A stretch of 64,000 nucleotides of DNA from Paramagnetospirillum magnetotacticum MS-1 (lineage in GTDB: Bacteria > Pseudomonadota > Alphaproteobacteria > Rhodospirillales > Magnetospirillaceae), in NCBI RefSeq assembly GCF_000829825.1, contig NZ_JXSL01000020.1:372001-436000 (forward strand), given 5' to 3'. The position numbers were made by a program, and so were the translations under genes. Of the stretch, positions 25,993-38,025 are shown one piece after another. A model generated the notes under the pieces. It searched no databases and was not told the origin of the DNA. It saw only the letters and a list, made by a program, of their open reading frames with translations. Every line of letters begins with the position of its first letter. Position 1 is the stretch's first letter.

Positions 25993-26253
25993 TTGAGGGC
26001 TTGAGGGCGCATGCAATTTACAGGCAGCCGACACCTGTTCCAATAGCAACTGAGCGGTTCGCAATTGTAAGGATATCGCCCCAATCTCCACAATCCCCAC
26101 ACAATCCGAGCGCAAATTCATTGATAGTGGACGAAATTTGCTCTCTATCTCAATGATATCAAATAGATTTCCTGACTGTGTATTGATTTTTAAACTTTGT
26201 CCAGTTAGCTTGACTTGAGACGCGTTGAATTCAATAGGGCAGGGGATCTCGGT
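25993..26253 (+). promoter_or_regulatory. AT-rich gap upstream of the outer membrane protein gene
   Basis: A 261-base stretch that is clearly more AT-rich than its neighbours. TTGACT at 26210-26215 is a possible -35 site for the gene at 26254, but the -10 region is weak (around TCAATAGGG). The gap separates divergent genes and holds no ORF that I can support. Confidence 0.3.
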
Positions 26254-27414
26254 ATGGGCTGGTTGTTTCGTGGAAGCTTGGCGGTTGCCGTCGTCGCGTT
26301 GAGCCTAGCGGGCGTGCCTGCCTTTGCCGGTCCCCCCTGTCCGCCTCCTCCTCCTGGCGCTCCGCCCCAGGGTGGCGGTTGTAATGGCGGCCCGCCCCCG
26401 GTCGGCGGTGGCAAGGGTCCGCCTCCCATGATGGGTAATCTTGTCGGCGGCATGATCGGTGGCCGTGTGGCCCAGGCCGTGGGCGGCGCCATGGGCGGCG
26501 GCGCTGGCATGCCCGGCGGTCCCGGTGGTGGTGCTCCTGGTGGCCCCGGTGGTCCGGGTGGTGGCAACGTCGGCAGCGGACCTCAGACCAGTCTTGATGA
26601 GTCCGACACCTCTGTGACCGGCATGTCGGCGGGTAGCCTTCCCGCCACCATCGGCCTGTGGGTCAACGCCGGACAGACCTGGCTGGATGGCGATCAGGTC
26701 AACAACGACTATTACGGCACCATCAAGACGGCCATGACCGGCGCCGACGTTACCATCAACGGCAAGTATATCCTGGGTCTGTCAGCCGGTATCGGCCGCG
26801 AGGCCACCAAGATCCGCTATTCCAATATCGACATCACCGGGCAGACCGGCACCGTGGCACCCTATGCCGCCTATATCATCAATGACATCTTCTATGTGGA
26901 TATGTCGGGCGGCGTCAGCCGAGTGCTGTATCATGAGCAGTCGAATTCCCAGAAGGGCGACTATACCGGCCTGCGCTACTTCACCGGCGCCAATCTGAAT
27001 GCCGCCAAGACGTTCGGCTCCTGGTCGCTCAGCACCAATATCGGCTATCTCTATTCGGCCGAAAAGGTGCGGATGTACACCACCAATACCGGCTATGTGG
27101 TGAACGAGACCAAGTCGCGCACCGGCCAGATCCGCAGCACCAGCAAGGCGGGCTACACCTATCTGACCTCCTGGGGCTGGCTGTATCCCTTCGCCTCGGT
27201 CCGTCTGGAATATGACGCCAACAAGACCGGCGCCACCCCCATCGACACCGCTGGCACCATGGCCGCCAACAGCCTGTTCGGAACCACGTTCGGGGCGGGA
27301 ACCAGTGTCGGAATCGGCGCCAACAGCACCTTCACCGTGGAAGGGACGACGACGGAATTCCGCGAGCATTCCTCCGTCTACGGCTTGACGGGCACGTTCC
27401 GTTACAAGTTCTGA
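26254..27414 (+). CDS. Autotransporter-like outer membrane beta-barrel protein
   Basis: A 386-residue secreted protein. After a signal peptide (AVAVVALSLAGVPAFA), residues about 25-110 are a Pro/Gly/Met-rich low-complexity linker (PPCPPPPPGAPPQGGG and later GGAGMPGGPGGG). The C-terminal ~260 residues are alternating beta-strand sequence ending in the outer membrane signature TFRYKF with C-terminal phenylalanine, as in autotransporter barrels. It has no long passenger domain. It is 77 bases upstream of the PqqD-like gene and might be the outer membrane part of that system. ATG 26254 is chosen for the signal peptide. Confidence 0.7.
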   Translation: MGWLFRGSLAVAVVALSLAGVPAFAGPPCPPPPPGAPPQGGGCNGGPPPVGGGKGPPPMMGNLVGGMIGGRVAQAVGGAMGGGAGMPGGPGGGAPGGPGGPGGGNVGSGPQTSLDESDTSVTGMSAGSLPATIGLWVNAGQTWLDGDQVNNDYYGTIKTAMTGADVTINGKYILGLSAGIGREATKIRYSNIDITGQTGTVAPYAAYIINDIFYVDMSGGVSRVLYHEQSNSQKGDYTGLRYFTGANLNAAKTFGSWSLSTNIGYLYSAEKVRMYTTNTGYVVNETKSRTGQIRSTSKAGYTYLTSWGWLYPFASVRLEYDANKTGATPIDTAGTMAANSLFGTTFGAGTSVGIGANSTFTVEGTTTEFREHSSVYGLTGTFRYKF

Positions 27415-27491: not shown

Positions 27492-27767
27492 ATGTCCGTG
27501 GATCTGCGCGACATATTGAATGATTTGATCGCCAAGGACCGCCTGCCGGCCCTGGCCATCAGCGCCAACGGCTTTGCCTTCGATCCCCGCTCGGGCCAGA
27601 GCTTCACCGTCAATCACACCGGTATCGCCACCGTGGAATTGCTGCTGGCCAACAATTCCATTGATGCCACCGTTGACGAGTTGGCCCGTCAGTACGACGT
27701 ACCTGAAGACGTTGTTCTCGGGGCCGTCGAAGTCTTCATCCGTCAGCTTGCCCGGTATCTGACATGA
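27492..27767 (+). CDS. PqqD-like protein (peptide-binding RRE type)
   Basis: A 91-residue protein resembling PqqD: AISANGFAFDPRSGQSFTVN in the first half, then TVDELARQYDVPEDVVLGAV and a helix near the C-terminus. PqqD-like domains often act as RiPP recognition elements that bind precursor peptides for tailoring enzymes; others have different roles. Its stop overlaps the start of the ATP-grasp gene (ATGA), so it is the first gene of the coupled operon. No obvious precursor peptide gene is visible beside it, which leaves its partner unknown. Confidence 0.65.
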   Translation: MSVDLRDILNDLIAKDRLPALAISANGFAFDPRSGQSFTVNHTGIATVELLLANNSIDATVDELARQYDVPEDVVLGAVEVFIRQLARYLT

Positions 27768-28870
27768 TCCCCCTGACCAAGACCTCTTCCGACTGGCGCC
27801 GTTGGACCATCGCCATTACCGGCGTCAATGCCAAGCCCGACAATCCCGGACCGGGGCTGGCGGTGGCGCGCTGCCTGCGCGAGTCCTTAGGCTTTACAGG
27901 CCGCCTGATCGGCCTGGGCTACGAGGTCCTCGATCCCGGCCTTTATCATTCGGGGATCTTCGATGCGGGCTATCTCATCCCCTATCCTTCGGGGGGCAGC
28001 GAGGGCCAGCTTGAGCGGCTGATGGAAATCCACGAGGCCGAGCGCATCGACGCCGTCATTCCCTGCCTGGATGCCGAGTTGTCCACCTTCGCCCATAATG
28101 CGGTCGCCCTGGGCGCGGCGGGTATCCGCATGATGGCGCCGGGCTTGGAGCAATTGCGGGCGCGGTCCAAGGACAATCTGGGCGAGCTTTGCCGCGATCT
28201 CGGCATTCATACGCCAGAGACCCAAAAGGTCTCCGATGCCGGGTTCTTCGAGCGTTGCCGCGACGAGGGCTGGACCTATCCCCTGGTGGTCAAGGGCATC
28301 TATTACGACGCGGTGGTGGCCGAAACCCCGGAAGACGCCAAGGCCGCCTTTCACCGCATTGCCGCCCAATGGGGCTATCCCGTGCTGGTCCAGCAATTCG
28401 TCGGCGGCTACGAGATCAATCTCACCGCCATTGGCGACGGATCGGGCGAGATGATCGGTCCGGTGATGATGCGCAAACGCGCGCTGACCGATAAGGGCAA
28501 GGCCTGGGCTGGCATCTCCATCGATGACGACCAGCTGGAAGCCATGGGCCGCACCATCATGGCAGGCACCAAATGGCGCGGAGGGCTGGAAGTGGAGGCC
28601 CTGCGCGGCGATGACGGAAAGCTGTACCTGATCGAGGTCAATCCGCGCTTTCCCGCCTGGATCTATCTCAGTCACGGGGTCGGTTGCAATCTGCCCCAGG
28701 CCCTGCTGCGCCTGATGGCCGGAGACCGTCCCACCGACCTGCCCCGGCCGCGTCCCGGGACCTTGTTCATCCGCTATGCGGAGGAGCTGATCGTCCCGCT
28801 GGAGCAGTTCCAGGCCATGATGGTCGAGGGTGTGGTGGCCGCACCTTGCAACAAGAACCGCGTAGCTTGA
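27764..28870 (+). CDS. ATP-grasp ligase (PylC/carbamoyl-phosphate-synthase-like)
   Basis: A 368-residue ATP-grasp enzyme. The N-terminal ~110 residues are a Rossmann-like preATP-grasp domain (ITGVNAKPDNPGPGL). The central part has WTYPLVVKGI, giving the ATP-binding lysine. The metal-binding EVNPRF (E291, N293) closes the site. Such enzymes join a carboxylate to an amine or similar nucleophile with ATP, as in PylC or D-Ala ligases. The substrate is not visible. In context, with a decarboxylase and an amidotransferase, it likely builds an amide or peptide bond on a small product. Its start overlaps the PqqD-like stop. Confidence 0.8.
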   Translation: MIPLTKTSSDWRRWTIAITGVNAKPDNPGPGLAVARCLRESLGFTGRLIGLGYEVLDPGLYHSGIFDAGYLIPYPSGGSEGQLERLMEIHEAERIDAVIPCLDAELSTFAHNAVALGAAGIRMMAPGLEQLRARSKDNLGELCRDLGIHTPETQKVSDAGFFERCRDEGWTYPLVVKGIYYDAVVAETPEDAKAAFHRIAAQWGYPVLVQQFVGGYEINLTAIGDGSGEMIGPVMMRKRALTDKGKAWAGISIDDDQLEAMGRTIMAGTKWRGGLEVEALRGDDGKLYLIEVNPRFPAWIYLSHGVGCNLPQALLRLMAGDRPTDLPRPRPGTLFIRYAEELIVPLEQFQAMMVEGVVAAPCNKNRVA

Positions 28871-28883
28871 TCGGATAAGCTTG

Positions 28884-30266
28884 ATGTCCAAGGAAACGGG
28901 CAGCCGGCGGGGCTGGGAGCCGCCCTATATCACGCCGCACCGCCATGACAATTCCAAATTCGGCCGCCGCGCGGCGCGCGACAATTGCTGGGAACAGATC
29001 GACGGCGTCGATGTGGAATACCTGATGTCGCGCTACGGTTCGCCGCTGTTCATCGCCTCGGAGCGCCGCCTGCGCGAGAATGTGCGCCGGGTCAGGGGCG
29101 CTTTCGAGCGGCATTACCGCCCGGTGGTGCACGGCTGGTCCTACAAGACCAATTACACCAGCGCCATCTGCCGCATTTTGCATCAGGAAGGCTCGTGGGC
29201 CGAAGTGGTCTCGGCCTTCGAATACGAGAAGGCGCGCTCGCTTGGCGTTCCCGGCAACCGCATCATCTTCAACGGCCCCAACAAGCCCCGCGCCATTCTG
29301 GAACGCGCCATCGCGGAAGGCGCCCGGCTGCATGTGGACCATCTGGACGAACTGGAACTGATCGAGCGCATCGCGCGAGAAAAGGGCGAGGTGGTGCCGG
29401 TGACGCTGCGGCTCAACTTCAATACCGGCTATACCGATCCGTGGAGCCGCTTCGGCTTCAACCTGGAATCGGGACAGGCCCACAGCGCCGCCTCCCGCAT
29501 CAAGCGCAGCGCCCATCTGAGGCTGACCGGCCTGCACAGCCATATCGGCACCTTCATCCTCGAGACCCGCGCCTATGCCGAGCAGGTGCGCCTCATGTGC
29601 AACTTCATGAAGACGGTCGAGGCCGATGGCGAATGCGTCATCGATGCCATCGATATCGGTGGCGGGCTGCCGTCCCGCAATGCGCTGCAAGGCATCTATC
29701 TGCCGCCCGAACAGGCGGTCCCGGCGGTGGAGGAATACGGCGCCGCCGTGTGCTCCGCCCTGGAGGAATGTCTGGCCGACCGGGTCGGTCCCCATCCTAC
29801 CTTGTTCATCGAAAGCGGCCGCGCCGTGGTCGATGACGCCGTGTCCCTGGCGTCCACCGTGGTCGGCACCAAGCGCCTGCCCGACGGGCGGGCGGCGGCC
29901 GTCCTCGACGCTGGCATCAATTCCATGCTGACGGCGTTGTGGTACCACCATCCGGTCAAGCTGACCAAGCCCAAGGCGGGCGATTCCGCCGATACCGTCC
30001 TCTACGGCCCCATGTGCATGAATATCGACGTCATGCGCCATACCGTGCAATTGCCGCCGCTGTCGGTGGGCGATTGCCTGGTCTTCAATCCGGTGGGCGC
30101 CTACAACAACACCCAGTGGCTGCAATTCATCGAATACCGTCCGGCGGTGGTGCTGATCCATTCCGACGGCGAGCATTCGGTGATCCGCGAGGCCGAAACC
30201 ATCGAGGATATGAACCGGCACGACAGGCTGCCCACCCATCTGCAGTCTCCGGTCGATCTGCCATGA
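28884..30266 (+). CDS. Fold-III PLP-dependent decarboxylase
   Basis: A 460-residue member of the alanine-racemase-like barrel family (Orn/Lys/Arg/DAP decarboxylase group II). The PLP lysine is K88 in GWSYKTNY; GLHSHIGT and DIGGGLP are the typical barrel motifs. The C-terminal domain has GPMCMNIDV, where the catalytic cysteine and aspartate positions of the usual CESxD are kept but the residues between differ, and VGAYNNTQW with the active-site tyrosine. The changed motif argues for a substrate other than DAP. ATG 28884 is 13 bases after the ATP-grasp stop; a TTG precedes it. Confidence 0.82.
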   Translation: MSKETGSRRGWEPPYITPHRHDNSKFGRRAARDNCWEQIDGVDVEYLMSRYGSPLFIASERRLRENVRRVRGAFERHYRPVVHGWSYKTNYTSAICRILHQEGSWAEVVSAFEYEKARSLGVPGNRIIFNGPNKPRAILERAIAEGARLHVDHLDELELIERIAREKGEVVPVTLRLNFNTGYTDPWSRFGFNLESGQAHSAASRIKRSAHLRLTGLHSHIGTFILETRAYAEQVRLMCNFMKTVEADGECVIDAIDIGGGLPSRNALQGIYLPPEQAVPAVEEYGAAVCSALEECLADRVGPHPTLFIESGRAVVDDAVSLASTVVGTKRLPDGRAAAVLDAGINSMLTALWYHHPVKLTKPKAGDSADTVLYGPMCMNIDVMRHTVQLPPLSVGDCLVFNPVGAYNNTQWLQFIEYRPAVVLIHSDGEHSVIREAETIEDMNRHDRLPTHLQSPVDLP

Positions 30267-30793
30267 CGGCGCCGCCCTTCATCCTGCGCGCCCCCCGGCC
30301 CGAGGATGTGGCCGCCTATTGCGGCTTTCTGAGCGACCCGGATGTCCATATCTGGCTGGAGGACCGCTGCCAGCGGCCCCTGTCCCTGCCGGAAATCCAG
30401 GCCTTCGTCCTGGGGCCCGCCTGGTGCCGCTGGGCCATCGAATGCGATGGGGCCTTTGTCGGACTGACCGGTCTGGAAGACTACGACCCGGCGCGCGGCA
30501 CCGCCCGCTTCTTCATCGTCATCGGCGACCGCAAGCTGTGGGGGCGAGGGCTGGGCGAGGCGGTGATCCGCCGCGTGCTGGAGCATGGCTTCCATGGCCT
30601 GGGCCTGCGCAAGATCGTTTCCGATTTCATGGCTCCCAATCAGGGGTCGCGGCGGATTCACGAGCGCGCGGGATTTCGGGAAGAAGGTTGCGCCCGCGAT
30701 GATAGCTGGCGCCGGGGTGGATGGGTCGACCGGGTCTATGTGGCCATTTTCAAGGACGAGTTCGACGCCCAATCCCAAGGCGCGCCATCATGA
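30263..30793 (+). CDS. GNAT-family N-acetyltransferase
   Basis: A 176-residue GNAT protein starting with the family pattern FILRAPRPEDVAAYCGFLSD. The acetyl-CoA binding region is near GRGLGEAVIRRVLEHGF (motif A, R/Q-x-x-G-x-G/A) and the C-terminal GSRRIHERAGFREEG is typical of the RimJ-like subgroup. It would acetylate an amine on a product or intermediate. Its start overlaps the decarboxylase stop and its stop overlaps the next start, so the operon is translationally coupled. Confidence 0.85.
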   Translation: MTAPPFILRAPRPEDVAAYCGFLSDPDVHIWLEDRCQRPLSLPEIQAFVLGPAWCRWAIECDGAFVGLTGLEDYDPARGTARFFIVIGDRKLWGRGLGEAVIRRVLEHGFHGLGLRKIVSDFMAPNQGSRRIHERAGFREEGCARDDSWRRGGWVDRVYVAIFKDEFDAQSQGAPS

Positions 30794-32991
30794 CCGTTCC
30801 GCGCGGGGATAACCCCGAGCGCCGGGCCGCGATCGAGGTGAAATGTCAGGCACCGGCCGAACGGCCGCTGTTCAAGTTCGTGCATGATCTGGTCTATGGC
30901 TACGGCTCGTTCATGTTCTTTACCCGCCCCTCGGCCAATCTGCTGCTGGTGGCCTGCACCATGATGCGGCCCTGGGTGGGATTGCTCGGCATGCTGGCTG
31001 GGATCTCCACCTTGCTGTGGCGGCGCTGGCTGGGGCTGTCCCTGGTCGCCGCGGGTGGCCTTGAAGTGGTCAACGGCATTCTGGCCGGGCTGCTGGTGGG
31101 CTATTTCTTCGCACCCGACTGGCGGGCCATGGCGCTGGGCCTGTGCGCGGGGCCCTTCGCCGTGCTGGTGTCGGCCTGGATGGGCGATGGGCTGCGCCGG
31201 GCCAATCTGCCGCTGCTGTCGGGGTCCTTCGTCGTGGTCGGAGCGGGCTTGCTGGCCGTCGGCAGGGCCATGGCCCTGCCTTTCGCGCCGCCGCCGGTTC
31301 TGGTTCCCGTGGAGTGGATGCCCGCGCCCGTCTACGAGTTCCTGCGCGCCCTGGGCGGCATTTATCTCACCCGTACGGTGGAAGGGGGCGCCTTCGTCCT
31401 GGCCGCGCTGGCCCTGTCGTCGCGCACCTTGGTGCTGCTGGCGGTGATGGCCCATGCCATCGCCCAGATCACCCTGCTGGGCCTGGGCATTCCCGCAGGC
31501 AGTCTGGCAGGCAGTTCGGCGGCCAGCGCCGCCATCATGGCCGCCATCATGACCGGCGGATTGTTCACGGCGCCCGGCGCGCGCGCCGCCGGTGTCGCGG
31601 GTTTTTCCGCCCTATGCGCCACCGTGGCGGCTTTGTCGCTTTACAACGCCCTGTTCTTCATGGCCCTGCCGCCGCTATCCCTGCCGTTCCTGGTGGTCAC
31701 CTGGCTGGTGATGCTGACCCTGCGGCCCGAGCATGGCGCGGCCTGGAACCGCTACTGGCTGGCGCCCTCCCTGCCCGAACGCAGCCTGGAGCGGGCCCGT
31801 CAGGCCGAGGCGCGGGGCCTGTCGCCCCATAGCGTCGGCCTGCGCGCACCGTTCTTCGGCCGTTGGGATGTCTATCAAAGCTTCGACGGCCCCCATACCC
31901 ATCAGGGGCCCTGGCGTCACGCGCTCGACTTCCACCGCATGGTCGATGGTCATGCCTATCGCGGCGATGGGGCGCAGCTTGCCGACTTCTACTGTTTCGG
32001 CCAGATCGTCCGCTCGCCCGCCTGGGGGCAGGTGGTGGCTCTTCGCGCCGATCTTGCCGACAATGCGCCGGGCGAGGTAGACCCGGTCAATTGCTGGGGC
32101 AATTACGTTTTGATCGCCATCGGCAATGACAATTACGTCCTGGTCGCCCATCTGCGCCAGGGCAGTGTCAGCGTTGCATTGGGAGAGACGCTCGTCCCCG
32201 GCCACCCTCTCGGCCAGTGCGGCAATTCCGGGCGTTCGCCCCAGCCGCATATCCATCTGCATGTCCAGGTGGGCATGGCATTGGGCAGCCCTACCCGGCC
32301 TTTCCATCTCAGCGGCATCTGCATCGATCACCGCTTCGTCCTGGACGGCATCCCCGCCGAGCGCGAGAAGGTGGCGGTGCCCCATGTCAGCGAGGCCCTG
32401 AAGCGCTCGCTGCATTACCAGATCGGGCAGCGGCTGGCCTATGGCTGCGCCGATGGGACGGAACTGGTGCTGGAAGTCGATCTCGGCCCCACCAACACCT
32501 TCGGTCTGGTGGCGGGCAGCGGCGCCCGCATCCTGCTGGCCGAGACCGACAATCTGCTGGCGCTTTACGAGCGGTTCGGCGCGCGCGACCGGCTGTTCGA
32601 CGCTTTCGTCCTGGCGGCGGGGCTGACCCCGCTGATCGATATCGAGGCCGAATGGTCGGATGCTCCGCCCGCCCGCCTGCTGCCATTGCCGCCGCCGTTG
32701 CGGGCCATGCGCTGGCTGCTGCCCGGCCTGATCGGCGCCAAGAGCCATTACCGCCGCGACTGGGACGCCGAAACCCAGGCCTGGCAGCAATCGGGCACCC
32801 ATTGCCTAACCCTGGCCGGGCGGGTCGTGTGGCAGTGCCGAAGCGGAGCCCTGATCACCGAGGGCGGCGGCATCGTCGGCTTCTCGCTGGACGCCCCCGG
32901 CATGGCCATTCAGGCCCGGCTGACCCGTCTGGGCTTCAAGAGCGATACCGGCGTCGAAGGGTGGGAACAGCCCGTGGCGCGGGCGTCGTAA
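30790..32991 (+). CDS. Urea transporter domain fused to M23 metallopeptidase
   Basis: A 733-residue membrane protein. Residues about 45-320 are hydrophobic, with the UT-family arrangement (VVNGILAGLLVGYFF, NLPLLSGSFVVVGAG, LPPLSLPFLVVTWLVM). Residues about 370-520 form a LytM/M23 peptidase-like domain with the metal-ligand pattern THQGPWRHALDF and HIHLHVQ, plus the family GNSGRSPQPHIHLH stretch. The last ~200 residues are less clear. It may move a small polar product through a UT-type channel and act on peptidoglycan on the outside. The ATG at 30790 overlaps the GNAT stop. Confidence 0.72.
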   Translation: MTVPRGDNPERRAAIEVKCQAPAERPLFKFVHDLVYGYGSFMFFTRPSANLLLVACTMMRPWVGLLGMLAGISTLLWRRWLGLSLVAAGGLEVVNGILAGLLVGYFFAPDWRAMALGLCAGPFAVLVSAWMGDGLRRANLPLLSGSFVVVGAGLLAVGRAMALPFAPPPVLVPVEWMPAPVYEFLRALGGIYLTRTVEGGAFVLAALALSSRTLVLLAVMAHAIAQITLLGLGIPAGSLAGSSAASAAIMAAIMTGGLFTAPGARAAGVAGFSALCATVAALSLYNALFFMALPPLSLPFLVVTWLVMLTLRPEHGAAWNRYWLAPSLPERSLERARQAEARGLSPHSVGLRAPFFGRWDVYQSFDGPHTHQGPWRHALDFHRMVDGHAYRGDGAQLADFYCFGQIVRSPAWGQVVALRADLADNAPGEVDPVNCWGNYVLIAIGNDNYVLVAHLRQGSVSVALGETLVPGHPLGQCGNSGRSPQPHIHLHVQVGMALGSPTRPFHLSGICIDHRFVLDGIPAEREKVAVPHVSEALKRSLHYQIGQRLAYGCADGTELVLEVDLGPTNTFGLVAGSGARILLAETDNLLALYERFGARDRLFDAFVLAAGLTPLIDIEAEWSDAPPARLLPLPPPLRAMRWLLPGLIGAKSHYRRDWDAETQAWQQSGTHCLTLAGRVVWQCRSGALITEGGGIVGFSLDAPGMAIQARLTRLGFKSDTGVEGWEQPVARAS

Positions 32992-34487
32992 TGTGCGGTA
33001 TCGCCGCCACCATCGGCCTTAGCGACGCCACGGCCTTTACCAGCCTGTTCGGCGCCATCGGCCATCGCGGCCCCGACGAGAGCGGCATCCGCGAAAGCGG
33101 GGACATCCGCATCGGCATGCATCGTCTGGCCATCGTCGGGCGCATGGGCGATTCCGTCCCGCTGATCGGAGCCGATGGTCTGGTCCTGGCCTTCAACGGC
33201 GAGATCTACAATCACCAAGCCCTGCGGGCGGATTTTCCCGATTACCCCTTTGCCGGTCAATCGGATGCCGAGGTGCTGTTCCCGCTTCTCAAGCGCCACG
33301 GCCTGGGCGGTCTTGACCGATTGCGCGGCATGTTCGCCTTCGTGCTGACCGATATGGAGAGCGGCGAATTCCTGGCGGTGCGTGATCCCTTCGGCATCAA
33401 ACCGCTATATTACGCCGAGACCGGCGGCGGCTTTGCCTTTGCCTCGGAGATGAAGGCCTTCGCCGCCATGGGCATCACGCCGCGCTTCCTGCCGCCGGGC
33501 CATCTGCTGACCCGCCATGGGCTGAGGCGGTGGTATCGGGTTCCCGGTCGTTTCCGACTGTCCCGGCGCCCCAATCTTCGCGCATTGCTGGAGCGGGCCG
33601 TGGCCTCCCATCTGCCTCCTGAAGGCCCCTGCGGCGTGTTTCTCAGCGGGGGGCTGGACAGCTCTCTGGTCGCCGCTTTGGCCGCGCGGTCGCGGCCCGA
33701 TATGGTCGCTTACAGCGTGGTCCTGCCCGGTTCTCCCGATGAGGAGCCCGCCGCCCTGATGGCCGCCCATCTGGGCATCCGGCACAAGGTGCTGCGGGCG
33801 ACTGCGGATGATATCCGCGCCGCTCTGCCTGAAGTGATCGGGGCGCTGGAAAGCTTCAATCCCATCATGGTGCGCAACGCCGTTCCCCTTTATCTGCTGT
33901 CCAAGATGGCGGCCAAGGATTGCAAGGTGGTGCTGGGCGGCGATGGGGCCGACGAATTGTTCGCAGGCTACGACTATCTGTCCCGGGTGCCGCGCCGGTT
34001 CTGGCCCCAGGCCATGGATTACGGCTTCAGCAATCTGCATCGCACCGAGTTGCAGCGGGTGGACCGCATGACCATGGCCCATGGTCTGGAGTTGCGGGTG
34101 CCCTTCCTGGACCGCGAGGTGGCGGAAGCGGCCGTCAACCTGCCCCTTTCCGCCAAGTTCGGGATCAAGGACGGCACCCCCATGCCGAAGCTGGCGCTGC
34201 GCGAGGCTGCCGAAGGATTGCTGCCGCCTTCCATCCAGTGGCGCCGCAAGCTTCCCCTGGCCGATGGCAGCGGTTTCGGCGGCCTGGATCTGGGAGCGGG
34301 GCGGGACAAGGCGGATCCGGTTCCTGGTTGGGATGTGGGGGACGAGGATGCAGTGGCGTTCTTCCCCCTCTGGCGGGTCCGCTTTCCCCTTGCCCGTCCG
34401 GACAGCGCCATCTGGAGGGATTGCGGCCGTTACCACGATTTCGAGGAATGCCATGGACGCCCGCTGCTCGAACTCTTTCGCCGCTAA
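32991..34487 (+). CDS. Asparagine synthetase-like amidotransferase
   Basis: A 498-residue class II glutamine amidotransferase plus synthetase. The nucleophile Cys2 follows the initiator Met (MCGIAATIG) and glutaminase features RGPDESG and NGEIYNH are present. The ATP-binding loop SGGLDSS is at 219-225, then GGDGADELFAGYD in the synthetase half. It is shorter than standard AsnB, and the C-terminal region is less conserved. In a tailoring cluster, such enzymes may make an amide, a beta-lactam or a similar product rather than free asparagine. It starts with TAATG overlap. Confidence 0.8.
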   Translation: MCGIAATIGLSDATAFTSLFGAIGHRGPDESGIRESGDIRIGMHRLAIVGRMGDSVPLIGADGLVLAFNGEIYNHQALRADFPDYPFAGQSDAEVLFPLLKRHGLGGLDRLRGMFAFVLTDMESGEFLAVRDPFGIKPLYYAETGGGFAFASEMKAFAAMGITPRFLPPGHLLTRHGLRRWYRVPGRFRLSRRPNLRALLERAVASHLPPEGPCGVFLSGGLDSSLVAALAARSRPDMVAYSVVLPGSPDEEPAALMAAHLGIRHKVLRATADDIRAALPEVIGALESFNPIMVRNAVPLYLLSKMAAKDCKVVLGGDGADELFAGYDYLSRVPRRFWPQAMDYGFSNLHRTELQRVDRMTMAHGLELRVPFLDREVAEAAVNLPLSAKFGIKDGTPMPKLALREAAEGLLPPSIQWRRKLPLADGSGFGGLDLGAGRDKADPVPGWDVGDEDAVAFFPLWRVRFPLARPDSAIWRDCGRYHDFEECHGRPLLELFRR

Positions 34488-35859
34488 CGCCCGGCTGCTG
34501 GTCAAGGCCGTTCTGGCCGGAATGGCGGAACTGGCGCTGTGCCGCGATTGGCGGGCGGGGCTGCTGATCATCGCGGGCTTTCTTCCCTTTTCGCCCGAGG
34601 CCTGCGGCATGGCCCTGCTGGGGGCATCGGTGGCGACGGCCTGGCCGTTTGTGCGGCAAAGCGATGTCCGCCTGCTCAATTCCGGCTGGTACGGCGCCAA
34701 TGGGGCTCTGTGCGGTTTCCTGGTGGAATGGTATTTCGCCGACCCTCTGGGCGCGGTGATTCTGACCGTGTTGTCGGCCTGGGCGGCGGCGCTGATTCTT
34801 GAGGCGATCGTGATTCCGCTGGGCGATGCCCCGCTGGCCATGGCGCCTTTGACCATCCCCTTCCTGGTGATGGCCGCCCTGATCACCGTGTCGGTACGGC
34901 CGCTTTACAAGGTGATGGAAAGCCTGGCGGTGTCAGAGCCTGCCGCGGCGGTCTCGGGGCCGGAAGGGGCGGATGATTGGAGCCGTCTGGGCTGGGGCCA
35001 GTTCCAAAGGGGCGAGGTGGGGCCGTCGGTCCGCAGTTTCAACGCCGCGCTGACCCTGGATCCCGCCCACCCCTGGGCCTTGGACGGCTTGGGCTGGGCG
35101 GTCTATTCCCAGGGCCGTTACGGCGAGGCGGAAGGGTTGTTCGCCCGCGCCCAGGCGGCCATGCCCGGCTTGGCCGATCCACTGACCGGCCTGGGTTGGA
35201 TCGGACTTCGCCAAGGCCGCTTTGAGGCGGCTTACCGGCATTTCTCCGAGGCCTTGGCCCGGGATGGCGGCTCAGCAGTGGCCGGTGAGGGATTGGGCCG
35301 CGCGCTGCTGGCTTCGGGCCGCCATAGGGATGCCGAGATGGTCTTCCTGGGCCTCTTGGGTAGTTCGCCCGCCGCCCTTCGGGGGCTGGCCGATTCGCGG
35401 CGTATGCTGCTGCTGAATGGCGCCGCCTTGACCCCGGATTCCAGGGAATGGGCCGAGCTTATCCGACTCCTGGGCTGGAAGGTGGCAGCTCTCGGCGGGC
35501 TTGCCCTCACGGTTCTGATCTGGACGCCGGTCGCCGGGATGATCGGTCTGTCGCTCATGGCTTTGGGGGCGATGACGGGCGTGCTGCTGGCCGGTCCCTC
35601 ATCCCTGCTCTGGTTCGATCTTCACCTTCAAACGGTGGCCATGACCGGATTGCTGATGGCCCGGCCCCAGCATTTCCGGGGCCTTTGGAGCCTGATTGCC
35701 GTGCTTGGCCTGGCCGTCGCCGTCTGGGCCGTATCGCACCGCCTGGGCATCTGGTTGCCGCTTTTGTCCTTCAATCTGGCCGGTATGGCCGGTCTGCTGC
35801 TGCTCAGGCGGTCCGGCGCAGGCCTCGGGCCGATCCATATTTTCTCCAAGTTCAATTGA
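34453..35859 (+). CDS. Urea transporter-like protein with inserted TPR domain
   Basis: A 468-residue membrane protein. Residues about 10-155 contain one UT-like half (WYGANGALCGFLVEWYF and APLTIPFLVMAALI). Residues about 175-305 form about three TPR repeats (WGQFQRGEVGPSVRSFNAAL, then two similar helical pairs). A second hydrophobic part (about 335-460, ending with LPLLSFNLAGMAGLLLL) looks like the other UT half. A soluble TPR module thus separates the two halves. The start overlaps the end of the amidotransferase gene by 35 bases. Assembly with the product-making enzymes or with the first UT protein is inference. Confidence 0.6.
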   Translation: MDARCSNSFAANARLLVKAVLAGMAELALCRDWRAGLLIIAGFLPFSPEACGMALLGASVATAWPFVRQSDVRLLNSGWYGANGALCGFLVEWYFADPLGAVILTVLSAWAAALILEAIVIPLGDAPLAMAPLTIPFLVMAALITVSVRPLYKVMESLAVSEPAAAVSGPEGADDWSRLGWGQFQRGEVGPSVRSFNAALTLDPAHPWALDGLGWAVYSQGRYGEAEGLFARAQAAMPGLADPLTGLGWIGLRQGRFEAAYRHFSEALARDGGSAVAGEGLGRALLASGRHRDAEMVFLGLLGSSPAALRGLADSRRMLLLNGAALTPDSREWAELIRLLGWKVAALGGLALTVLIWTPVAGMIGLSLMALGAMTGVLLAGPSSLLWFDLHLQTVAMTGLLMARPQHFRGLWSLIAVLGLAVAVWAVSHRLGIWLPLLSFNLAGMAGLLLLRRSGAGLGPIHIFSKFN

Positions 35860-35914: not shown

Positions 35915-37324
35915 ATGAACCTGGATATTCGAACCCTTCTGGTGGCTGTCCTTATGGTCTCGGCCGCTTCGGCAGCCGCCAGATTCGTGTTGTGGCTCCA
36001 GCACTCCTCCATTCCTGGGCTTGTTCAGTGGTTCGTGTCCATGTTGCTGGGGGCCTTGGTCATCGGTCTGATCGCCGTGCCGGGAGACAGCGTTTCGCGC
36101 ATGGCTTTCGCCATCGCCCCCTCGATCGTGGTCGTCGGATACGCCGTGGTCTGGGACGGGTTCCGCCGCTTCACCGGACGCCCTCCTTTGTCGCCGGTCA
36201 TGATCATGTTTTTGGGCAGTGCGGCCCTCTTGCTTTTGGCGCTGATCGCCATTCAGGGAAGCATGGCCTTTCGGGTCGCGCTCAACACCAGCGTGGCCGG
36301 GGTGATTTGCGCCATCATTTCGATCGAGCTGTTCCTCTCGGCCGGGCAAGGTCAGCGGGCCATGCGGATTACCGCAACCCTTTATGCGGCCAGCAGCGTC
36401 TTCTTCTTGCAGCGCACGGTGGCCGTCATGATCGATCCCACGCAGATCGGTCCGGTGGGTGTGGACAGTATCCAGACCCCGACCGCCCTTTGGTGGCTGG
36501 CCATGCCCCTGACCATCACCCTGGGCATGATTTTGATGACCGGCGAGCGGCTTCAGATGGACATCAATCAGAAGATGATCCGCCTGGACGAGGTCACCGC
36601 CCAGAAGCTGGCCGAGGAGCGGTTGCGCATGGCCGAGAAGGAGCGCATGGAGGGGGCGCTGCGCCAATGGATGGCCGATTCCTCCCACGAATTGCGCACG
36701 CCCATTTCGGTCCTGCGGGCCCAGATCGAAGCCATCCAGGATGGCGTCTTCACCGCCGATGCCCGCCGCCTCGAAGTCCTTCACCACGAGGTGATGGGCA
36801 TGACGCGGCTGGTGGAGGATCTGTTCCTGCTGGCCCGGTCCGATATCGGCCAGTTGGAATGCCGTTCCGACCCCATCGACATTCTCGATGTTCTGGACGG
36901 GGTGATCCATGCCTTTCGCGGCCGTTACGCCGAGGCAGGGCTGGGGCTGGAGGCGCCCGACGATTCAGCGGGCGGGCTGGTGATCTCGGGCGATGCGGTG
37001 CGCCTTAGGCAGGTGTTTTCCAATCTGTTGGAGAACAGCCTGCGCTATACCGATCCCGGCGGGCGGCTGGTGATAAGCCATCGCGGGCAGGGGGCGGGCG
37101 TGCTGTTTCACTTCGACGATACGGCACCCGGGGTTTCCGAGGACAACATGGCCCATCTTTTCGATCGCTTTTTCCGCGTGGACGTCTCACGCAGCCGCGA
37201 AAGCGGCGGATCGGGCCTGGGGCTTGCGCTCAGCCGTACACTGATCGAGGCCCATGGCGGCACCATCGAAGCCATGCCCTCGCCGCTGGGCGGACTGAGG
37301 ATCGCGGTCAGGTTTTCTTGCTAG
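35915..37324 (+). CDS. Sensor histidine kinase with multi-TM N-terminus
   Basis: A 469-residue kinase. About six membrane segments fill residues 5-215, so sensing is within or near the membrane. The H box SSHELRTPISVL gives the phosphorylated histidine (about residue 253). N box NLLENSLRY, the FDDTAPGVS motif and GGSGLGLALS complete the HATPase domain. It follows the UT-TPR gene by 55 bases and precedes its response regulator by 11, so it may control the upstream operon. The ligand is unknown. Confidence 0.88.
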   Translation: MNLDIRTLLVAVLMVSAASAAARFVLWLQHSSIPGLVQWFVSMLLGALVIGLIAVPGDSVSRMAFAIAPSIVVVGYAVVWDGFRRFTGRPPLSPVMIMFLGSAALLLLALIAIQGSMAFRVALNTSVAGVICAIISIELFLSAGQGQRAMRITATLYAASSVFFLQRTVAVMIDPTQIGPVGVDSIQTPTALWWLAMPLTITLGMILMTGERLQMDINQKMIRLDEVTAQKLAEERLRMAEKERMEGALRQWMADSSHELRTPISVLRAQIEAIQDGVFTADARRLEVLHHEVMGMTRLVEDLFLLARSDIGQLECRSDPIDILDVLDGVIHAFRGRYAEAGLGLEAPDDSAGGLVISGDAVRLRQVFSNLLENSLRYTDPGGRLVISHRGQGAGVLFHFDDTAPGVSEDNMAHLFDRFFRVDVSRSRESGGSGLGLALSRTLIEAHGGTIEAMPSPLGGLRIAVRFSC

Positions 37325-37335
37325 GAGGGCGCTTG

Positions 37336-38025
37336 ATGACGCAGGAACGCAAAATCCTGGTGGTCGAAGACGAACCGGCCATCGCCGATGTTCTGGTGGA
37401 ATATCTGCGCCATGCGGGCTATTCGCCCAGTCATGTGGCCGATGGCCGGGTCGCGCTGGACGAAATCCGCCGCGATCCGCCCGACCTCGTGGTCCTCGAT
37501 ATCATGCTGCCCGGTATGGATGGGACGGCGGTCTGCCGGGAACTGCGCCGGTTTTCCACCATTCCGGTAATCATGGTGACCGCCAGGGTCGAGGAGATCG
37601 ACCGTCTTTTGGGTCTCGAAGTGGGCGCCGACGACTATATCTGCAAGCCCTTCAGCCCCAGGGAGGTCGTCGCCCGCATCACCAGCCTGTTCCGCCGCAT
37701 GGAATGGGGGAATCCGGTTCCGGCATCGGGACCGGCCCAGCTGGAGATCGACGATGCCGGTCTGCGCATTTGCATCAACGGGAACCGCCTGCCCCTGACC
37801 CCGACCGAATTCAGGCTGATGCGGCTGCTGGCCTCCAGTCCTGGCCGCATCTACACCCGCGCGCAGATTCTCGATCTGGCCTATCATGGCGACCAGGACG
37901 TGTCGGACCGCATCATCGACAGTCACGTCAAGAACATACGAAAGAAGATTTCCTCGGTCTGGCCGGATGTCGATGTCATTCACTCCGTTTATGGCATTGG
38001 CTATCGCTATGAGATCGTGGCGTAG
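37336..38025 (+). CDS. OmpR-family response regulator (BaeR-like)
   Basis: A 229-residue response regulator. The receiver has the acidic pocket VVEDEP, phosphoacceptor aspartate in VLDIMLPGMDG (about residue 55) and lysine in YICKPFSP. The C-terminal winged helix of OmpR type has TPTEFRLMRLLAS and DSHVKNIRKKI. The ATG at 37336 follows AGGAGG, a strong ribosome site. It is cotranscribed with the kinase and is its likely partner. Confidence 0.92.
   Translation: MTQERKILVVEDEPAIADVLVEYLRHAGYSPSHVADGRVALDEIRRDPPDLVVLDIMLPGMDGTAVCRELRRFSTIPVIMVTARVEEIDRLLGLEVGADDYICKPFSPREVVARITSLFRRMEWGNPVPASGPAQLEIDDAGLRICINGNRLPLTPTEFRLMRLLASSPGRIYTRAQILDLAYHGDQDVSDRIIDSHVKNIRKKISSVWPDVDVIHSVYGIGYRYEIVA

Follow-up and report, generated by a model that had tools for sequence, protein, structure and literature searches.

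Urea transporter (UT) proteins are known as urea channels, and dvUT, UT-A and UT-B (SLC14) share the UT fold. The synthesis of N-acetylglutaminylglutamine amide (NAGGN) uses an ATP-grasp enzyme, a GNAT acetyltransferase and an AsnB-type enzyme, and we take a fused GNAT/ATP-grasp synthetase to be its defining feature. AlgK/AlgE, like PgaA and BcsC, exemplifies polymer export through TPR and outer-membrane barrel parts. In butirosin synthesis, BtrJ is reportedly the ATP-grasp ligase partner of the decarboxylase BtrK. BtrK belongs to the FigC/FslC clade (with SbnH, AcsE and MccE), which covers citryl-diaminopropionate, citryl-serine, microcin C adduct, glutamyl-carrier protein, diaminopimelate (DAP) and D-ornithine decarboxylases; the substrates of all except the last two are amino acids that are already linked to another moiety (PMC7857480). 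Here we describe a gene cassette in a 64,000-nucleotide stretch of the Paramagnetospirillum magnetotacticum MS-1 genome (the window; contig NZ_JXSL01000020.1, positions 372,001 to 436,000). Its seven genes encode, in order, a PqqD-domain protein, an ATP-grasp ligase, a pyridoxal phosphate (PLP) decarboxylase, a GNAT acetyltransferase, a UT-fold channel fused to an M23 domain (UT-M23), an AsnB-like amidotransferase and a split UT protein with TPR repeats (UT-TPR). The cassette is real, conserved and, as far as we searched, undescribed; the mechanism set out below is a proposal with support behind it. Four genes, PqqD-ATP-grasp-PLP-UT-M23, form the conserved unit, and GNAT, AsnB and UT-TPR are a lineage-limited addition.

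With the PLP enzyme as query, 84,980 species genomes yielded 130 relatives, and the loci of the best 80 of these 130 were analyzed. The loci were picked by PLP similarity, near relatives included, and the counts are therefore not counts of independent events. Neighbors were counted at loci with enough flank, over 2.5 to 3.5 kb, together with clusters of open reading frames (ORFs). In tblastn searches with the window's proteins, ATP-grasp was found at 76 of the 80 loci, UT-M23 at 72 and the short, diverged PqqD at 63; GNAT and UT-TPR were each found at 3, and AsnB at 7 (adjacent in 3). ATP-grasp lies upstream of the PLP gene in 74/75 loci with flank, PqqD upstream of ATP-grasp in 68/73 (including 7 longer forms), and UT-M23 downstream of the PLP gene in 69/75. 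All four core genes occur together in 63/80 loci, so their recurrence goes beyond chance. A reverse search with a UT-M23 profile is less exposed to the PLP-based choice of loci; it matched 42 of 398 Pseudomonadota genomes at E<=1e-30, and 36, including the window's own, at E<=1e-74. Of 43 places, the 30 best include 28 where the PLP gene adjoins UT-M23. Eight PLP loci lack UT-M23; three of these are at a contig edge, and two of those three genomes have UT-M23 on another contig.

The best-80 loci come from Magnetospirillum, Magnetococcales, Accumulibacter, Gallionella, methanotrophs, Chromatiaceae, Obscuribacterales/Melainabacteria, Eremiobacterota, Anaeromyxobacter, Desulfobulbaceae, a Legionella metagenome-assembled genome (MAG) and others. 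The cassette is spread over Pseudomonadota, Melainabacteria/Cyanobacteria, Eremiobacterota, Myxococcota and Desulfobulbaceae. Phyla mostly cluster in the PLP phylogeny, with Anaeromyxobacter beside Chromatiaceae and a Desulfobulbaceae row inside Gammaproteobacteria; these placements fit occasional transfer, which MAG binning errors could mimic. A plasmid search gave no match to the PLP enzyme at E<=1e-60; for UT-M23 at E<=1e-20 it gave solely M23-domain matches, on two Halocatena plasmids. This relative of the M23 domain lies at 4001-4627 of L160, from plasmids of the archaeon Halocatena marina. No description of the cassette was found in the open literature; subscription papers were mostly outside this search, and an earlier description may exist there. 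In the Legionella MAG (L052), the PqqD-ATP-grasp-PLP trio stands alone between genes that, by eye, resemble parts of a secretion system.

The seven-gene form is a minority. All seven genes are present in the same order in L035/L147 (Magnetococcales) and L148, and in L034 with GNAT inverted; L149 has six of the seven, without GNAT, and L033/L150 is cut by a contig end inside the PLP gene. L033 also has GNAT. A sequence-only reading of the window had described the seven genes as a coupled operon for a small product that matched no named pathway, and had suggested a gene-order comparison with other genomes. That description was borne out, and the order is conserved elsewhere; as the unit of conservation, however, the seven genes give way to the four-gene core. 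The L148 contig (8496 bases) has both of its ends within the PLP gene and holds the complete set of seven genes between them; 57 PLP residues are missing and the ends do not overlap. Such a layout may reflect a tandem copy, a circular form or an assembly artefact.

Among solved structures, the PLP enzyme is nearest to the N-citrylornithine decarboxylase 7kh2 (E 2.7e-58); DAP decarboxylase ranks below it (2.2e-41). K88, H218, E310 and C378-M379-N380 are conserved in 79-80 of the 80 aligned rows. C378-M379, the Cys-Met loop of FigC, is present in every row, and the Cys-Glu-Ser signature of LysA is replaced by Cys-Met-Asn in every row. At the position of the DAP-binding arginine the cassette enzymes have Phe (71 rows) or Leu (9 rows). 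Matches to the LysA model TIGR01048 (223.3 of 297.9 bits) and the FslC model NF041039 (220.7 of 500 bits) are below cut-off. DAP decarboxylation was rejected on the loop, the arginine position and the LysA cut-off. In FigC, Met takes the place of the acidic residue that adjoins the catalytic Cys and binds the side-chain amine, Thr327, Thr330 and Tyr331 line the pocket, and His357 and Arg387 lie near citrate in a docked model (PMC7857480). Mapped by counting along the structure-match alignment, Thr327 and Tyr331 of this specificity helix are each kept in 80/80 cassette rows and Thr330 is Trp in 79/80, whereas the citrate residues are replaced (His357 by Ile in 78/80, Arg387 by Gln in 77/80). 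The simplest reading of these residues is that the substrate would be an amino acid whose far end is capped, the cap not being citrate. The decarboxylation by a fold-III PLP enzyme that had been proposed earlier stands and becomes more specific, in that the enzyme most resembles those for capped amino acids. The cassette differs from FigC/FslC systems also in its other neighbors and in that no NIS (nonribosomal-peptide-synthetase-independent siderophore) synthetase was found in the genes scanned. BtrK, a decarboxylase of the same type (PMC7857480), is reportedly paired with an ATP-grasp ligase, as here, but no acyl carrier protein was found in the cassette genes scanned.

UT-M23 has the UT fold. 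Of the reported urea contacts in dvUT, a bacterial channel, Q24, T130 and E187 are kept in 0/56 UT-M23 rows and T294 in 7/56; in one row the E187 position is Gln, as in mammalian UTs. The match to the urea transporter model TIGR03441 (37.6 bits) is below its 274.6-bit cut-off, and the genome has no urease above cut-off. Because the contact residues are largely replaced and no urease scored above cut-off, urea uptake by UT-M23 is unlikely; the earlier label "urea transporter-like" was right for the fold. Unlike urea transporters, UT-M23 is fused to an M23 domain and a further domain and is linked to biosynthesis genes. The M23 domain has the fold and zinc-ligand residues of its family, and the charge pattern, combined with the usual UT topology, would place it in the cytosol. 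A scripted signal-peptide pattern was dropped, as 36/72 UT-M23 proteins also passed it. The C-terminal domain (window 32350-32991) is beta-rich with high model confidence and has no Pfam match; it lay outside the structure-match rows, and R595, W622, D624 and W665 are invariant in it. UT-TPR has TPR repeats between two UT-like halves, the second recognized by weak alignment alone. Its predicted model has low confidence (mean predicted local distance difference test 65.8, predicted template modeling score 0.53), and sequence is therefore the main basis for reading it as a split UT protein.

The ATP-grasp gene scored below Pfam cut-offs (ATPgrasp_Ter, 27.9 of 29.1 bits). In alignment, however, it keeps the E291-x-N293-x-R295 motif and conserved lysines, and its profile matches the structure 2pn1 (E 6.6e-15), carbamoyl phosphate synthetase and, weakly, PylC (E 1e-4). 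PqqD has a weak match to the lasso PqqD model (34.5 bits), and its C-terminal end is too weakly conserved to mark an attachment residue. Longer PqqD forms with an N-terminal extension stand upstream of ATP-grasp in L082, L086, L087, L088, L098, L105 and L107. The extension in L105, the sole extended form scanned, is a TetR_N-type DNA-binding domain (Pfam), and this hints at a reporting role of the PqqD domain in the pathway. Among the accessory enzymes, GNAT has weak matches at most to named acetyltransferases. AsnB passes TIGR01536 (355.6 bits, cut-off 267.1); its GGDGADE/GGDGSDE and MVRNA segments, found in 6/6 aligned cassette members, are SGEGSDE and TTIRAS/TTVRAS in E. coli and human enzymes, where we take them to be the aspartate acceptor site. 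The genome holds other AsnB-type genes.

Same-strand neighbors in other cassettes include an outer-membrane barrel of ~300 amino acids (25/80 loci) and a TPR protein of ~210 amino acids (24/80); an OmpR-type regulator or this barrel is present in 51/80. The ~300-residue family (c13) is putatively a barrel from our reading of its alignment; scans of 2 of its members against Pfam and of 3 against NCBIfam gave no match. The barrel upstream of PqqD in the window was tried as a c13 member and rejected (no similarity, hhalign probability 0.2). A relative of the same type and in the same place was found at only one of the 80 loci, L034 (56% identity over 339 amino acids). In L147 and L149, the genes upstream of PqqD instead encode a FecR-domain protein and a TPR protein whose second part is barrel-like and, in L147, weakly SlipAM-like (19.5 of 22 bits). 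The occurrence of different barrels at one position suggests a role that some such protein has to fill. The barrel that the sequence-only reading placed before the operon is real; rather than merely preceding it, the protein probably fills a recurring outer-membrane slot and is the probable outer-membrane partner of the cassette. Beyond the barrel, TPR protein, regulator, a Melainabacteria TPR family and TetR-PqqD, neighbor clusters in at least 6 loci comprised a single generic GGDEF-type one, the remaining unlabeled clusters being antisense or frame-shifted shadows of labeled genes. Cassette TPR proteins have weak matches to PgaA and BcsC models. The likeness to these exporters lies in the logic of TPR plus outer-membrane barrel; no glycosyltransferase was found in the cassette genes scanned, and the inner-membrane part is a UT channel. 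In L143/L151 and L144/L152, UT-M23 stands with a TPR gene and no adjoining PLP gene, and in L151 a divergently oriented TPR protein has, by eye, a barrel-like part.

An OmpR-type regulator adjoins the cassette in 31/80 loci. In tblastn, the window regulator shares 50-59% identity with 25 of these 31 and 30-49% with the remaining six. Within its own genome, the paralogue that scores best shares 44% identity with it. A tree of 45 regulators, which holds one of two own-genome paralogues and leaves out L156, places the window regulator in a clade of 15 (support 99/91), all cassette-adjacent. The other 14 come from Obscuribacterales/Melainabacteria, Cyanobacteria, Eremiobacterota and MAGs titled "bacterium". 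The N-terminal part of the sensor histidine kinase has no Pfam match. The two-component system had been listed as a separate neighbor after the operon; it is present there, but the regulator clade points to its being part of the cassette.

We propose, at about even confidence, a dedicated small-molecule cassette that makes an amino-acid-derived compound and moves it through the cell envelope. In the cytosol, ATP-grasp would join an amino acid to a second carboxylate or amine, and the PLP enzyme, judging by its active site, would decarboxylate the joined, distally capped amino acid to an amide-bearing amine. PqqD may bind the enzymes, a peptide-like intermediate or the product and, given the TetR-type domain in some genomes, may report product level. 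The product would pass the UT-M23 channel, whose pore lacks most urea contacts, and the zinc-type M23 domain would hydrolyze or bind an amide at the channel mouth. In many genomes the associated TPR protein, with its leader-like start, and the outer-membrane barrel may complete the envelope route, and the associated BaeSR-type two-component system may switch the cassette. In the window's lineage, GNAT would acetylate and AsnB amidate the product further, and the TPR-bearing second UT protein would replace the separate TPR protein. An amine, amide or ureido compound remains a guess for the product, uncontradicted by the evidence. More tentatively, and with somewhat less confidence, the cassette may be a hitherto undescribed envelope-spanning system of several phyla in which a UT-fold channel was turned from urea to export of a dedicated capped-amine metabolite, with the fused M23 domain as the last processing step, TPR/barrel partners and a two-component switch of its own. 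With its changed pore, its fusion to M23 and its linkage to ligase and decarboxylase genes, this branch of UT proteins points to a channel fold put to new use and to a metabolite not yet described. The four core genes are compact enough for product and transport to be directly testable.

Several observations weigh against this proposal. The genomes of L049, L051, L052, L092, L109 and L110 have no UT-M23 at E<=1e-30, and in the first three the PqqD-ATP-grasp-PLP trio stands without it; UT-M23 is upstream and on the opposite strand in L036, and lacks a PLP gene in L143 and L144. No c13-type barrel is found beside the cassettes of L067 (Accumulibacter), L053 (Anaeromyxobacter) and L043. The adjacent regulators are limited to the 31 loci and do not form a single clade (at least 2 label changes are forced). 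No close regulator adjoins the cassette in the seven-gene relatives L034, L147, L149 and L150, so the regulator link is not universal. Mammalian urea channels with Gln at E187 still carry urea, Q24/E187/T130/T294 are a partial test, and other dvUT contacts are mostly or half kept (L84 45, L129 54, L247 52, F190 39 and F243 34 of 56). The nearest free-standing M23 relative has a signal-peptide-like start, contrary to a cytosolic M23 domain.

One alternative is peptidoglycan or envelope modification, with M23 trimming peptidoglycan, the DAP-decarboxylase-like enzyme and AsnB altering DAP precursors, and the BaeSR-like system sensing envelope stress. This seems unlikely given the missing DAP decarboxylase loop and arginine, the LysA score below cut-off, the predicted cytosolic M23 domain and the absence of a murein ligase among labeled conserved neighbors. 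A NAGGN-like compatible solute, an acetylated, amidated dipeptide, would account for ATP-grasp, GNAT and AsnB, which stand together here in the window's lineage only. AsnB does match the NAGGN amidotransferase model TIGR03104, but at 223.8 bits, far below the 570.1 cut-off; GNAT and ATP-grasp are separate genes, GNAT and AsnB are missing from most cassettes (adjacent in 3 and 3 of 80), and the added decarboxylase, channels and other envelope proteins are left unexplained. We consider this explanation improbable.

A ribosomally synthesized and post-translationally modified peptide (RiPP) pathway led by PqqD as peptide-binding element is a little less probable again. The PqqD domain is above the Pfam cut-off and weakly resembles lasso PqqD, and ATP-grasp and AsnB-type cyclases occur in RiPPs; lasso models nevertheless fell below cut-off, and neither a conserved small-protein gene (ORFs >=60 amino acids) nor a radical-SAM or leader-protease gene was among the neighbors in at least 6 loci. 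Slightly more doubtful still is a siderophore or metallophore like rhizoferrin. The closest characterized decarboxylase is from rhizoferrin synthesis, and a barrel and FecR-domain protein lie nearby in some relatives; against this stand the replaced citrate contacts, the low FslC score, and the lack, among the genes scanned, of any match to an NIS synthetase or a TonB plug. Uptake of urea or amides for nitrogen supply has the UT fold in its favor, but is very improbable given the replaced contacts, the lack of a urease above cut-off and the constant linkage to ligase and decarboxylase. Urea uptake, NAGGN and rhizoferrin were rejected on these grounds, as was, less firmly, a RiPP, for which the search covered ORFs >=60 amino acids near the cassette. 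No known system type that we tested, drawing on open papers, fitted the cassette. Apart from the C-terminal domain of UT-M23, all of its domains are known ones.

The earlier domain assignments agree with the Pfam and NCBIfam results (Table 1). Pfam matches of the listed genes, the flanking barrel and two-component system included, scored above gathering cut-off, except for the ATP-grasp gene.

Table 1. Features of the cassette and its flanks, in window coordinates.
Feature	Coordinates	Strand	Evidence
Outer-membrane barrel (autotransporter beta-domain), Gly/Pro-rich N-terminal part	26245..27414	+	PF03797 47.3 bits, above cut-off
PqqD-domain protein, core	27492..27767	+	PF05402 40.5 bits
ATP-grasp ligase (carbamoyl-phosphate-synthase-like/PylC-like), core	27764..28870	+	Motif and profile matches
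Alanine-racemase-fold PLP decarboxylase, FigC-like Cys-Met loop, core	28884..30266	+	Orn_Arg_deC_N 112 bits
GNAT acetyltransferase, accessory	30263..30793	+	PF13302 (Acetyltransf_3) 78.3 bits
UT-M23: UT-fold channel, M23 domain and C-terminal beta-rich domain, core	30790..32991	+	UT 92.6, Peptidase_M23 33.3 bits
AsnB-like glutamine amidotransferase, altered acceptor-site segments, accessory	32991..34487	+	Asn_synthase 220.6, GATase_7 112.8 bits
UT-TPR: split UT protein, TPR repeats between halves, accessory	34453..35859	+	UT 52 bits and TPR
Sensor histidine kinase, BaeS-like catalytic part	35915..37324	+	HATPase_c 81, HisKA 43 bits; start ATG
OmpR-family response regulator, BaeR-like	37336..38025	+	Domain/model matches and tree

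All seven same-strand genes were found again, with the five overlaps and single gap that had been reported. The overlaps are of 4 bases at PqqD/ATP-grasp, PLP/GNAT and GNAT/UT-M23, 1 base at UT-M23/AsnB and 35 bases at AsnB/UT-TPR; the ATP-grasp/PLP junction, with its 13-base gap, is the sole non-overlapping one of the six. An alternative UT-TPR start at ATG 34522 would leave a 34-base gap after AsnB; for the ATG at 34453, a Met stands at the aligned position in 3/3 aligned relatives.

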